Source of the DNA: Acidobacteriota bacterium
GTDB taxonomy: Bacteria > Acidobacteriota > Blastocatellia > UBA7656
Length of the DNA stretch: 64,000 nucleotides
Direction of reading: 5' to 3'
Assembly (NCBI GenBank): GCA_038040445.1
Contig: JBBPIG010000003.1
Location: 62,001-126,000, forward strand
Shown here: in pieces, positions 47,804-55,219 of the stretch
How positions within the stretch are numbered: the stretch's first letter is position 1
How the letters are laid out: each line of letters begins with the position of its first letter
The notes under the pieces: generated by a model
Databases searched by the model: none
The model's input: the letters and a program-made list of their open reading frames with translations, nothing else
Told to the model about the DNA's origin: nothing
Program-made: the position numbers and the translations under genes

Positions 47804-48214
47804 TTAAGGTACTTTGAATGGATTGACGAGTGCTAGTCCTTCTATCTTTGAGTAGCTGTCAAAGTCTTCTGAGTATTAGCAGGTCACGCCGCCCTCCAGG
47901 GAAGCGGCAATGATCATCGCGTCCCAATAAGAAAGACTGTAGTCGCTTAGTAGCTTCTCTGCTTTATTGATAATCGGCCAAGATGGAAGCTTCGTCGTCC
48001 ACAATCGTTGCAATCTCCGAATCTCTTGATACGCTCTATCTCGGTTAAACCCGAGGGGCTCCAACTTCCTGCTAGCTGCGATGAATTCGCATGCCACTTG
48101 CCAGAGCAGGACACCGTCGACAAGAGACTGAACGAGCGCATCGGCCGCTTCCTGCTTTACGGAGTCACGGGGATCATGGACATAGATTAAGACATTAGTA
48201 TCAACGGCGTTCAT
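47804..48214 (-). pseudogene. PIN-domain (VapC-like) toxin interrupted by an in-frame UAA
   Basis: The frame from 48214 has PIN acids in AVDTNVLIY and YWDAMIIAASLEGG. A UAA (47878-47876) stops it after 112 codons. The same frame then continues YSEDFDSYSKIEGLALVNPF to a second stop at 47804, exactly the family's C-terminal end with its last acidic residues. Full length would be 136 residues, normal for VapC. A single change such as UUA to UAA explains it. The 112-residue product lacks part of the active site and is probably inactive. It overlaps the antitoxin gene by 14 bases. Confidence 0.85.
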
Positions 48215-48443
48215 GTAGTTCGTCGCGCGTGAAGCGAGGCGCGTTGGTTGGGATGGGGTTCTCTCTCATACTGCGTACAACCTCTTTTAGCAAAGCTGCA
48301 CGTTCAACGGGGTCTGTTATTTCTGGCGGAATTGTATAGGGGTCGTCAACGGTCAGTTCTACCTCGGAGCCCTCAGGTAAGTCACAGGGCTGTTGTGGAA
48401 CAAAAACCCCGTCGTGAAAAACCGCTCGTACTCTTTGACTCAT
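48201..48443 (-). CDS. AF2212/DUF104-like antitoxin
   Basis: The 80-residue protein begins VRAVFHDGVFVPQQPCDLPEGSEVELTV (about residues 5-32), the typical start of the AF2212/PG0164 antitoxin family, and ends in a charged helix that should bind the toxin. It overlaps the start of the PIN gene by 14 bases, as in many type II toxin-antitoxin operons. It remains intact although its toxin has a premature stop. Confidence 0.8.
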   Translation of the reverse strand: MSQRVRAVFHDGVFVPQQPCDLPEGSEVELTVDDPYTIPPEITDPVERAALLKEVVRSMRENPIPTNAPRFTRDELHERR

Positions 48444-50723: not shown

Positions 50724-50807
50724 GGGGAAGCGCGAGGAACACAGACTAAAGTCTGCGCTACCTGCGGGGAAGCGCCTGCAGTACAGACTAAAGTCTGTGC
50801 TACCTGC
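50724..50807. repeat. Two 42-base direct repeats with CAGACTAAAGTCTG core
   Basis: Units at 50724 and 50766 each have GGGGAAGCGC, a variable six bases, then ACAGACTAAAGTCTG(C/T)GCTACCTGC. The core is palindromic. The second unit contains the stop codon of the LolA-like gene, so the repeat has reached into coding sequence. Confidence 0.85.
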
Positions 50808-51474
50808 GGACGACTTTAGTTCCGGAAGGCCAGGATACTTTGAACGTGTCGCCTGAAGCTCCGGCGCTCTGCTTCAGGTTGCTCAAGCTAAACGTGGTGA
50901 CGTTGTTGTTCGTCTCGACGATCTGATATTTGATTGGAAGCCACAATGATTGATCGACCCACAGGGTTACTTTCTTCGCAGAAGACGCGCCCTTCGGCGT
51001 CAACTCGAGCTTCGCGGTCGAGCCTTCGTCGCCTGCATACACGATGTTGAACTGGCTCTTGAGCTCCGGCACGGACTTGTATGGCGTTGCTATGAACGAG
51101 AACTCCTGATTCTGTGAAGCCTGCGCCTTCCGCGTTGTCAAGATGACCTGGTTGATGCGCGGCTGATATAGAGTGATGTTGTCGCCGACTACCGCAACAA
51201 CCTGACCGTCAGGTATTGAGTAGTTGATACGGAGCTTGTCCTGATTCTTACCGGAGTGTTGGAAGTAGATCTTGCCGGTGTAGACCTCCTTACCGCCGAT
51301 CTGCATGTCGCGTTTCTCTTGCCGCAAGTCGGCTTCAATGGTTTTGATGGATCGGGCAGCCCGTTCCATGTTTGCGAGCACTTCATCGAGCTTTCCGTTC
51401 ATGCCCGCACCGCGCGCCGGGATAGACGCTACGACGGCGAGCGTGACTAAGGAAAATAACAACCTACTTCGTAT
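50800..51474 (-). CDS. LolA-like lipoprotein carrier
   Basis: ATG 51474 gives a 224-residue protein with a signal peptide (LLFSLVTLAVVASIPARGAG). The mature part has the LolA/outer-membrane carrier pattern: KLDEVLANMERAARSIKTIEADLRQEKRD, YFQHSGKNQDKLRINYS, and alternating strands to the end. It should chaperone lipoproteins across the periplasm. The operon also encodes an ABC ATPase, permease and a LolB-like lipoprotein. Confidence 0.8.
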   Translation of the reverse strand: MRSRLLFSLVTLAVVASIPARGAGMNGKLDEVLANMERAARSIKTIEADLRQEKRDMQIGGKEVYTGKIYFQHSGKNQDKLRINYSIPDGQVVAVVGDNITLYQPRINQVILTTRKAQASQNQEFSFIATPYKSVPELKSQFNIVYAGDEGSTAKLELTPKGASSAKKVTLWVDQSLWLPIKYQIVETNNNVTTFSLSNLKQSAGASGDTFKVSWPSGTKVVRR

Positions 51475-51478
51475 CATG

Positions 51479-51817
51479 TTACTTCTCCGGCAATTGAACC
51501 GAGTCATCAGATCTCTGCCAAACCAAATAGTTGATAGTTCCTGAACTGTCCTGAGTTTTGTCGATGCGCGAAACTCTCACCAGGTGGCCGGTCTCCCGAA
51601 GTCGTTCTTCGATTGCTCGGATGTCGTTTGGATCGATTTCTCCTAACTCATCGCCTCGCACGACGAGCGGCGTCGACATGCTGCGTGAATGAAAGAAGCG
51701 GTTCGGTGAAAGAAAAATGAAAGCCAGGATCAGCACGCACATAACATCGTACTGCCAGCTTCCGCGCTCGTAGGACCAAAAGAGGATCTTTTTCAGAGTG
51801 CTTAGGAGAATCTTCAC
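51479..51817 (-). CDS. Small inner-membrane protein in Lol-like operon
   Basis: The 112-residue protein has one membrane helix ([16 protein letters not shown], about 22-37) and a C-terminal periplasmic alpha/beta part with [20 protein letters not shown]. Its ATG overlaps the stop of the ABC ATPase gene (ATGA), and its stop lies 4 bases before the LolA-like start. I know no family, but its place implies a role in the same export system. Confidence 0.75.
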
Positions 51818-52524
51818 GGTCGTCCCCGAACTGCTTCGGCAGGCACGCTCGAACGAACGACGTGTCCGTCTCGCATTTCAATAACGCGATCAGCTCGCGC
51901 GGCTGCTTCCCCGTTGTGAGTGATCATTATGATTGTCTGGCCGAATTCCTTGTTGAGCTGGCGCATCATGTTCAAGACGATATCAGAGTTCTCTGTGTCC
52001 AGGTTGCCGGTCGGCTCGTCCGCGAGAATTATAGCCGGGCGATTGATCACCGCGCGAGCGATTGCCACCCGTTGTTGCTCGCCACCCGAAAGCTCGAGCG
52101 GCTTATGGTGGAGCTTGTCCTGAAGACCGAGCAGTCTGAGAACCTCGCGTCGTCGCTCGGGATCCTGATTGTTCTTTCCCGAATAGATTCGCTCAGCCAG
52201 CTTGAGGTTACCCTCGGCGGTTAAGGTGGGGAACAGGTTGAAGCGTTGGAATACGAATCCGATTCTGCGGCGGCGCAGATCGGTGCGCTGGGCGTCGGTC
52301 ATAGCCGTTAGGTCCTCACCCTGTATGATCACCCGGCCGGACGTAGGTTTGAGCATTCCTCCGACGATATGCAGGAAGGTGGACTTGCCGCAGCCCGAGG
52401 GCCCCATGATCGCGACGTATTCGCCGGGCTCTACCTTCAGGGTCGCCCCACGCAATGCATGCACGTCTACCTTGCCGACGTGGTAGACCATCTCGAGATC
52501 GATTGTTTCGAGGACTGGGTTCAT
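51814..52524 (-). CDS. LolD/MacB-type ABC ATPase
   Basis: The 236-residue ATPase has Walker [11 protein letters not shown]-loop QRFNLFP, signature [14 protein letters not shown], Walker [13 protein letters not shown] and the switch His in MITHNGEAA. This short form drives MacB/LolCDE-type transporters that move substrates out of the inner membrane. It sits between the permease gene and the small membrane protein. A seven-base repeat array ends 5 bases before its start. Confidence 0.93.
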
Positions 52525-52528
52525 TGTT

Positions 52529-52618
52529 GGTCCGTGGTCCGTAGTCCGTAGTCCGTAGTCCGTAGTCTGTAGTCAGTAGCAACGCGAGCTACGGACTACT
52601 GACTACGGACTACGGACC
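52529..52618. repeat. Seven-base tandem repeat hairpin (permease-ATPase)
   Basis: Seven units of GGTCCGT/AGTCCGT lie at 52529, 52536, 52543, 52550, 52557, 52564 and 52571. The inverse, CTACGGACTACTGACTACGG and on, runs 52588-52618, giving a long imperfect stem. It fills the space between permease and ATPase genes of the Lol-like operon. Confidence 0.92.
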
Positions 52619-52623
52619 AATGA

Positions 52624-53802
52624 CTAATCATAACTTATCGCTTCGACTGGATCGAGGTTGGCGGCGCGCATTGCCGGGTAGATTGCGCCGATGATCCCAC
52701 CGAGCACGCCTATGAGCGCGGCGATCACCAGCCACTTTGGGTCCAGGTCGATCATCAATCTTGTGTTCGCTTCAAGTACAAGCTTGCCGATCACCGCGGC
52801 GGCGAATCCAAGCGCCACCCCCATCGCGCTGATCAACGCGGCCTCCTTCTCGATGGTAAAAACAATGAAGCGCTTCGATGCGCCCAGGCTTTTGAGTATT
52901 CCGATCTCACGCGTTCGCTCGATGATCGTCGTGTACATCGCAAGCAATATGACGAGCACGCTAATTACAAGGCCGAGCCCTATCACAACATCCAGGAAAA
53001 TCTCCACCGGCGCGAGTCCCTGCGAGTAAAGGGCAGGTATCTCGCTGGTTGCGATGACACGGTTGCCGGGGTAATAACGCCGCAACTCCTCGATCACCTT
53101 GTCTGCAAGTTCGGGCCTTTCGCACTTGACCATCACGAAAGTGCAGTTCTGGGCGCCCCCCAACAGTTGCTGCATGGTGTGCAGCGGAATCTTTACGCGA
53201 GCCAGCACCGACGGTTCGTAGATGCCGACGACCGTGAAGTCGTGACCGAGCACTTTTACCTTGCTGCCGATTCCCACCGGTCTTCCGTCGATGTCTTTAC
53301 CGCTGTCAGCATAGTAGTGATCGACGATGGCTTCATACTCGGTGCCGGGCGTGCGTCCGTCCCCTAGTCCTCGGCCCTTGGAAAGAGTCAGTTGCGTGGT
53401 CGTGATGAAGCTGGCGTAGTCCAAGCCGTCCACCATCTCGAATCCGATTCCCGCAACGCTTCCCTGGACGTACTCGCCTACGGGCGAGGTTGCCGCGACG
53501 CCTGCAATCGGCGGCTTGGGTTCGATGTCCGGATCGTCTGCCGTAGGTTGAAACCCGTGAAGAATCGTATCGGAGTACCGCTCCGGCAGCATCAGCGGGT
53601 TGCCGGCGAGCGCGATGTTGCCGCCCGGTAAAAAGCGGACCTCGGCATCAACACCGGATTGGCGTCGCGCGGCATCGCGCATCATGCCTCGGGCGAGCCC
53701 TACAAACAGAGTGACCAACAGGACTCCAAGCGCAACTCCGATAATGCTGATTGCCGTGCGCAGGGGACGCTGGCTTATGTTTGCTGCGATGAGGCTGTCC
53801 AT
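52624..53802 (-). CDS. MacB/LolC-type ABC permease
   Basis: The 392-residue protein has the four-helix plan of this class: helix 1 at about 15-40, a large periplasmic domain to about 265, and three helices at the end with EREIGILKSLGASKRFIV-type and EAISYD motifs (the former being the coupling segment). Such permeases pair with LolD-like ATPases to extract lipoproteins or export peptides. Its start shares one base with the stop of the lipoprotein gene. Confidence 0.9.
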   Translation of the reverse strand: MDSLIAANISQRPLRTAISIIGVALGVLLVTLFVGLARGMMRDAARRQSGVDAEVRFLPGGNIALAGNPLMLPERYSDTILHGFQPTADDPDIEPKPPIAGVAATSPVGEYVQGSVAGIGFEMVDGLDYASFITTTQLTLSKGRGLGDGRTPGTEYEAIVDHYYADSGKDIDGRPVGIGSKVKVLGHDFTVVGIYEPSVLARVKIPLHTMQQLLGGAQNCTFVMVKCERPELADKVIEELRRYYPGNRVIATSEIPALYSQGLAPVEIFLDVVIGLGLVISVLVILLAMYTTIIERTREIGILKSLGASKRFIVFTIEKEAALISAMGVALGFAAAVIGKLVLEANTRLMIDLDPKWLVIAALIGVLGGIIGAIYPAMRAANLDPVEAISYD

Positions 53803-54857
53803 TACTTGTTCGCGGGCATGGGAACGTTGGGCTTGCGTGGTGGTTCGGTCGTTGCCTTGCGAGGCGCATCCAGATTTATCTCTTCCAGCTTCTCGGTGTT
53901 CTCGAGATCGAACGTTGTGATAGGCAGCTCGGCATTCACCTCCACCGTTTCGGCGACCAGCATCAGATCGAGGCGATAGCCGTCGTTGCGCCGGTCAATG
54001 ATCACGCGTGCGGGCCACACCGAATTGCTGTTGGGTGCGGTGAACCAGTTCGAATAGGTAACGTCGCTGGCAAGCCTGCCAACGCCATTCTCAAAAGTCT
54101 GCTGGCGAGCGAGCGGAGTGCCGGCCTGGCTGCGGTCGAACCAGAACTTGCGGCGCAACTTGAGCTGGCCTTTTTCGTCGCGTTCCATCACGTACACGAC
54201 GTAGTAGCTTCTCTCGACCAGGCGATTCTTCTTTCCCGGGCGAGTGTCGGCCTCTACCTGGCGGACCTCCTCGCGAAACGCGTTGGGCCGGTCGCTCTCG
54301 GCGATGGGCTTGATCAAAAACGAATCGGTGATGTGCTGCGGCCGCATGTTTACCAACCCACCTGCCTTGGTAAGCTGAGGGTCGTTGGTGCGACTGATTT
54401 CCCCTGCATTCAACCGCTCTATGTCGCTCAAGTTGCTGCCGTATACGAATCGCCGCTTGTCTTGTGGGCGGTACATGGCCAGTTTGAACCTATGCCCGTC
54501 GCTCACCATCTCGGCAACCTTTTTGCTCAAAAAAGTCACGTTCATCCTGGTGTCTTCGGGTCGCTTGAATCGAATGAGTCCGGTTGCAGACGGGAACTCG
54601 TCGGCTTTCGCTCCCTCGCCGGTGAAATAGTTCCGGACGGTAACATCGGCTTGCGCCGAGAACGTCTGAATCTGGCTGTAGGCGTTGATCCGGTCTATGA
54701 GTTGGTCGGTAGATAGCTGCTCTTTGACCGGCAGCAGTTCGTTAACGTTCACCCGGCGCACGAATAACGCGCACGCCGACCCGAGCAGAGCCACGATCGA
54801 AATCAAGACGAACAACAGGTATCGAGTGCTTTTCACGCCGAACAGGTTTCCAAACAT
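53802..54857 (-). CDS. LolB-like/DUF4292-like lipoprotein
   Basis: ATG 54857 gives a 351-residue protein whose N-terminus is a lipoprotein signal ending LLGSAC. The mature part has the beta-rich LolA/LolB-type pattern: YSQIQTFSAQADVTVRNYF, a strand series with GLIRFKRPEDTRM, and a C-terminal extension rich in Pro and Lys. I infer a lipoprotein receptor role. It is the first gene of the operon, overlapping the permease gene by one base. Confidence 0.7.
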   Translation of the reverse strand: MFGNLFGVKSTRYLLFVLISIVALLGSACALFVRRVNVNELLPVKEQLSTDQLIDRINAYSQIQTFSAQADVTVRNYFTGEGAKADEFPSATGLIRFKRPEDTRMNVTFLSKKVAEMVSDGHRFKLAMYRPQDKRRFVYGSNLSDIERLNAGEISRTNDPQLTKAGGLVNMRPQHITDSFLIKPIAESDRPNAFREEVRQVEADTRPGKKNRLVERSYYVVYVMERDEKGQLKLRRKFWFDRSQAGTPLARQQTFENGVGRLASDVTYSNWFTAPNSNSVWPARVIIDRRNDGYRLDLMLVAETVEVNAELPITTFDLENTEKLEEINLDAPRKATTEPPRKPNVPMPANK

Positions 54858-55219
54858 AATAGTGCTGTATACAGAGGCCGCCGTTGCTAACCGCGCAAGA
54901 CTGAAAGCTAGCAAAGTGTTCGAACGCCTGTCAACGAAGCGTTTCCCCGCGATGGTCCGTCTCTTCCTGCGTGCCCCAAAACGGATTCTCTAGTTGCTCC
55001 GAGCTTGTCACGATTCAGCCTCCTTTAGTTCGTCTTAGTGTGGATCATTCTGCCAATGGCGAAAAGGTAATTGTTGCTCAGATGCAGAGTGTGTCCGGCG
55101 AAACGGTCGTTATCAGCGATATCGGTGGTCAAGTTCCAATCAACACAAGATCAGGACATCACCCAATCCCGTTGCGGCGGCGCTGTCCGGCCCCTTAGTA
55201 TTCTACTCAGGAGTCGCTT
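54858..55219. other. Divergent spacer before rarA
   Basis: This 362-base region separates the Lol-like operon from rarA. Two overlapping open frames on the plus strand give products with no family resemblance and no ribosome site, and I do not call them. Promoters for both directions should lie here, but none stands out. Confidence 0.35.

Follow-up and report, generated by a model that had tools for sequence, protein, structure and literature searches.

How lipoproteins and phospholipids pass to the outer membrane beyond Proteobacteria is largely an open question. The available portion of one source presents LolDF-LolA as the canonical pathway, typical of most diderms, and LolB outside Proteobacteria, if present, as unrecognised (PMC11784454). 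In the accessible part of another report, the flexirubin locus of Flavobacterium carries LolA2 and LolB2, which were proposed for pigment or lipoprotein transport (PMC11885536). Our search of the literature found no description of a Lol-type operon in Acidobacteria. Here, we describe an operon of Acidobacteriota, which are a major phylum among soil bacteria. It unites a LolA carrier and a putative ABC extractor with a lipoprotein that is a candidate acceptor and with a small protein that belongs to no known family.

A conserved five-gene operon

The operon was analyzed in a stretch of 64,000 nucleotides from a Blastocatellia genome (the window). Five ORFs on the minus strand run from 54857 to 50800, in the order lipoprotein, permease, ATPase, small protein, LolA-like protein, as described in an earlier note on this DNA, which had proposed a Lol-like operon. 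The lipoprotein gene (53802..54857, 351 aa; its longest reading would begin at a TTG at 54914) has one base in common with the permease gene (52624..53802, 392 aa). The ATPase gene (51814..52524, 236 aa) overlaps by four bases (GTGA) with the gene of the small membrane protein (51479..51817, 112 aa), which starts with GTG. The preferred start of the LolA-like gene (50800..51477; longest frame from 51507) is the ATG at 51477, one base past the stop of the small gene. The description of the operon as overlapping is thus correct for the lipoprotein and permease genes and for the ATPase and small genes, but not for the permease and ATPase genes, which are separated by 99 bp. This gap is filled with a 7-bp repeat (GTCCGTA, 52530..52617) in two opposed blocks, with 7 matches against 0.01 expected. 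A scan for promoters and terminators gave no excess over shuffled sequences, and no Rfam family or tRNA was found within the window. Elsewhere in the window, a PIN-domain gene and an AF2212-like partner (47876-48443) form a likely toxin-antitoxin pair.

We compared the operon with 38 other loci from Blastocatellia and 30 from other Acidobacteriota, with one stretch for most genera. These 68 loci are a choice among the small-protein matches rather than all of them, as a rule one per chosen genome, and they include contig ends. All five genes were found in order in 24 of the 38 Blastocatellia loci. Ten more lacked only the permease, three had no adjacent LolA (L046 and L085 stop at a contig end, and for L055, in genome G010, a LolA match lies on another contig), and one was a lone pair of small gene and LolA. 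Outside Blastocatellia, 11 of the 30 loci had all five genes, in the same order, and four had four genes; five consisted of the small gene and LolA with the ATPase not directly upstream, and ten had the small gene without LolA. Conservation of all five proteins and of the gene order shows that the cluster is no chance assembly of reading frames. A search for related loci with the lipoprotein as query returned one locus only.

The small protein and LolA are the closest pair of the cluster: LolA directly follows the small gene in 55 of the 68 loci, and the pair is kept where the ABC genes are elsewhere (six loci without the ATPase directly upstream: L080, L086-L089 and L108). In two loci the operon LolA is followed in tandem by another LolA-like gene (L057:6872-7558 and L058:4270-4959). 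The L080 pair (L080:3710-4837, contig G003:C21) is a diverged second copy that lacks ABC genes; the complete operon is present in the same genome.

Relationship of the five proteins to known families

According to curated models, the operon falls outside the LolCE, LolD and LolB families, and its carrier belongs to the LolA family by Pfam (PF03548, 62.9 bits; cut-off 23.6), in agreement with its first description as a LolA-like carrier. The carrier scored below the stricter equivalog TIGR00547 (67.9 bits; cut-off 112) and below NF053544 (LolA2; 41 bits, cut-off 125). Its profile (A3) matched LolA structures, the best being 8orn (E 8.4e-13), and profile comparison with canonical LolA indicated homology (99.5%, E 2.2e-22).

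The permease has the MacB_PCD (65.8 bits) and FtsX (65.5 bits) domains. Against TIGR02212 (LolC/LolE/LolF) it reached 27.5 bits (22.8 at C3:114630), far from the cut-off of 362.45, compared with 47.8 bits for MacB and 71.9 for ADOP; by profile comparison it is homologous to LolF (99.8%, E 9.5e-29). The ATPase matched ABC_tran (127.3 bits), and its best NCBIfam model was LolD (TIGR02211), at 222.3 bits for a cut-off of 307.75.

The lipoprotein has a hydrophobic leader followed by a cysteine (Cys29). A cysteine after the leader was recognized by eye in all 31 relatives, and by a loose lipobox pattern in 27 of them. The window protein had no reliable match among the Pfam and NCBIfam models. It had been called LolB-like; the LolB Pfam model matched neither the window protein nor any of the 31 members, so the name may hold only in a looser sense, suggested by weak profiles: DUF4292 in seven members (best 6.5e-5) and LolA_like in three. 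The lipoprotein profile resembled canonical LolA over 78 columns (85%, E 5.9e-6), with the N-terminal LolA pattern in common, and the operon LolA at 53% (E 1.3e-4). These matches are compatible with a LolA/LolB-type fold and a putative LolB role as acceptor. A fold model built from a two-sequence alignment (window and L045) had a mean pLDDT of 34.8 and was unusable, and a single match of the profile to PDB sequences (E 0.4) was dismissed.

The small protein consists of an N-terminal helix, one membrane segment with the motif W-x-Y-x-R-x-x-W-Q-Y-D, and a predicted beta-alpha-beta-beta tail. Its conserved part is the first ~50 residues, where W14, Y16, R18 and P38 are invariant and WQYD nearly so; the tail is variable, and short in several genomes. 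Given the basic N-terminus, the tail would lie in the periplasm and the N-terminus in the cytoplasm. The structural model (mean pLDDT 65.5, tail mostly 74-79) has two N-terminal helices and the beta-alpha-beta-beta tail, at middling confidence. In a PDB fold search nothing matched at E<=0.001; the best hits, ribosomal chains at 0.031, were dismissed as chance. The window protein matched no Pfam or NCBIfam family, and apart from isolated weak hits no Pfam family was found among 35 relatives either. The protein was found in 55 of the 58 genomes searched, the window's own counted (missing in G015, G019 and G052), and across the phylum it is present in 188 of 396 sampled genomes. The earlier note had not recognised this protein and suspected a new part; its conservation, including in the same operon elsewhere, and its lack of a known family bear this out.

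Coexistence with, and possible replacement of, canonical Lol genes

The window's genome has another LolA (C1:220235, 88.3 bits) and a LolF (C45:16963) that scores just below the TIGR02212 cut-off (352.8 bits) and adjoins a LolD-like ATPase (C45:18334). Separate complete lol genes together with a different substrate had been put forward as what would speak against a Lol-like operon; of these, LolA, LolF and LolD are indeed found elsewhere in this genome. Lipoprotein carriage there does not need the operon, which, judged from gene content, appears to be a parallel route and not the sole Lol set of the genome. Our first idea, that separate lol genes point to another cargo for the operon, was weakened by the results for family f3 and genome G007.

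We searched for canonical LolA with a class-specific profile (A6), which detected all three controls (G000, G010 and G014) at about 309-320 bits. No canonical LolA was found with it in any of the 30 f3 genomes, nor in G007; eight weak f3 matches (29-37 bits) all fell on the operon LolA. With the Pfam model, nine of 39 genomes (f3 and G007) had no full-length LolA except that of the operon, one of them (G012) having a 31-bit LolA fragment outside it. This suggests that in such genomes the operon can take on the carriage of lipoproteins, as far as gene content tells. Such gene absences may reflect divergence or assembly gaps.

LolF was found in 32 of the 39 genomes at E 1e-50. Among the 30 f3 genomes, LolF was clear in five (354-568 bits) and diverged in eight (176-257 bits); 12 had weak matches of at most 115 bits, which may be other permeases, and five had none at E 1e-20. 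Plain loss of LolF in f3 is therefore ruled out, and the five f3 genomes with clear LolF lack canonical LolA. As LolF scores in f3 drop from 568 bits to undetected, canonical LolA could there escape the A6 profile by strong divergence. Genomes G015 and G019 are the reverse case: they keep canonical LolA and LolF, and lack the small protein, the lipoprotein and an ATPase orthologue. None of the 39 genomes lacks both the operon and the canonical carrier, although only two genomes are without the operon, too few for this to carry statistical weight.

Proposed pathway and alternative readings

We read the operon as a second Lol-type pathway of Acidobacteriota, parallel to the canonical one, that probably carries lipoproteins itself in f3 and G007; we put the probability of this reading at about 0.5. 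Its parts would work like those of a Lol pathway, with an extractor, a carrier and a candidate acceptor in putative lipoprotein transfer. We infer the cargo, the direction, the docking role and the location of the lipoprotein. The MacB-type permease and the LolD-like ATPase would move mechanically to pull lipid-anchored cargo out of the inner membrane, and would hand it to the LolA-like periplasmic carrier, which the small protein, with its cytoplasmic basic N-terminus, single span and periplasmic tail, may hold at the membrane. Finally, and probably at the outer membrane, the LolA/LolB-fold lipoprotein would take over the cargo. In most Blastocatellia this route would run beside the canonical LolA and LolF-LolD set; in f3 and G007, where no other full-length LolA was found, it probably carries lipoproteins itself. 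The similarity of the operon LolA to canonical LolA, of the permease to LolF, and the N-terminal LolA pattern of the lipoprotein support a Lol reading; the distance of permease and ATPase from the LolCE and LolD equivalog cut-offs counts against it, as does a link to a lipid-head-group enzyme, which suggests a lipid cargo.

This link is the basis of the main rival, which we regard as possible while leaning against it: Lol-type parts would serve as a dedicated exporter that brings a phospholipid, perhaps of the inositol type or derived from such a lipid, to the outer membrane. A CDP-alcohol phosphatidyltransferase gene occurs in 14 of the 30 non-Blastocatellia stretches around the small gene, and in none of twenty 20-kb control stretches (400 kb) covering 14 of the same genomes. 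It lies directly upstream of the LolA-less small gene in eight of the ten such loci (L104-L107, L109, L110 and L112-L115), and in the stretch of six LolA-bearing or operon loci, with the order enzyme, small gene, LolA in L108; it is also near the lipoprotein in two of the three loci of family f16. The search profile was made of two sequences, both from the eight LolA-less loci, and several of the linked loci may descend from one ancestral arrangement. Five of the enzymes scored 146-162 bits against the archaetidylinositol-phosphate synthase model NF040950 (cut-off 180) and 30-41 bits against pgsA, so that they resemble phosphatidylinositol-phosphate synthases. Among the LolA-less loci, an MlaE gene is found near L106 and a VTT-domain gene near L115. 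Against a lipid cargo, the enzyme is near none of the 38 Blastocatellia loci, so the class to which the window belongs does not show the link; in f3 and G007 the operon LolA is the only full-length LolA; and since a phospholipid donor is likewise required to lipidate lipoproteins, the link is not specific to a lipid cargo. We consider rather unlikely a mixed form, in which a LolA-type pathway would be devoted to a phospholipid, perhaps one with inositol, and its shuttle would have taken over lipoprotein sorting in one family. Here a MacB-type extractor, possibly a pair of permeases A and B, would act with the small membrane protein as an adaptor, through which the LolA shuttle would pass from lipid synthesis on to the transporter, and the LolA/LolB-fold lipoprotein would be the acceptor. 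Least probable to us is that the operon exports peptides or acts in efflux like MacAB, its LolA-fold proteins being the adaptors: the permease does score higher with MacB and ADOP than with LolCE, but the operon has no MacA adaptor or TolC gene, its ATPase and permease are separate, and its conserved partners are LolA-fold proteins.

Permease B, which belongs to the same subfamily as the operon permease (A), bears both on lipid cargo and on the composition of the transporter. In the window's genome, B (G000:C13:112541-113611; L116:7539-8615) has no ATPase and adjoins an 848-aa AMP-binding/ACP/acyltransferase protein, and at L117:6332-8482, where a phosphodiesterase-like gene precedes it, B forms a fusion with an LPG_synthase_TM domain; these neighbours favour lipid cargo. 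Among 97 Blastocatellia genomes at least 90% complete, none lacks a permease of this subfamily; the number is two in 84 genomes, three in six and one in seven. The homodimer that the earlier note had deduced from the single permease gene is therefore not supported, since 90 of the 97 genomes have two or more. A permease tree of 68 rows separates clade B (19 rows, support 92/83) from the operon clade A (36 rows, support 82/62, weak), eight rows of A being now outside the operon. One possibility, which we hold doubtful, is that A and the distant B form a heterodimer on the single ATPase of the operon, as LolC and LolE do on LolD; it is compatible with the other readings. In its favour, none of the 27 non-cluster permease loci has an ATPase beside it within the stretch read, in addition to the number of genomes with two or more permeases, and A and B of the window's genome are identical at 17 of 23 positions in the coupling-helix region compared with 67 of 184 in the periplasmic domain. 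However, conservation of the coupling segment may be general in this fold, the A/B split has moderate support at most, and the genes around B are unlike those of the operon. G015 and G019 retain B without the operon or an ATPase orthologue (assembly gaps are possible), which weakens an obligate heterodimer. From sequence comparison, a heterodimer, or an ATPase common to A and B, is possible but unproven.

Comparison with known systems

Taken as a second, parallel Lol-type pathway, the operon brings as new elements the conserved small protein, the operon itself, a possible replacement of the carrier and a possible A/B permease pair. Since lineages seem to keep either the operon or the canonical carrier, which cargo needs which LolA becomes testable.

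With LolDF-LolA the operon shares an FtsX-type ABC permease, encoded by a single gene in the operon, a LolD-like ATPase and a LolA carrier. Unlike that system, it adds a lipoprotein and a small protein, its permease and ATPase are far under the LolCE and LolD cut-offs, and the canonical set is present separately. As in the LolABCDE system of Escherichia coli, there is a carrier together with a lipoprotein that may be the acceptor; however, here the LolB model has no match, all genes are in one operon, and this has one permease. The permease has the MacB_PCD and FtsX fold of MacB, but the separate ATPase gene and the lack of MacA set the operon apart from MacAB-TolC. As far as the accessible part of that report describes it, Flavobacterium LolA2/LolB2 is likewise an extra LolA/LolB-like pair beside a biosynthetic locus (PMC11885536), in another phylum and with other neighbours, whereas the pair described here is accompanied by a MacB-type ABC transporter and a conserved small protein.
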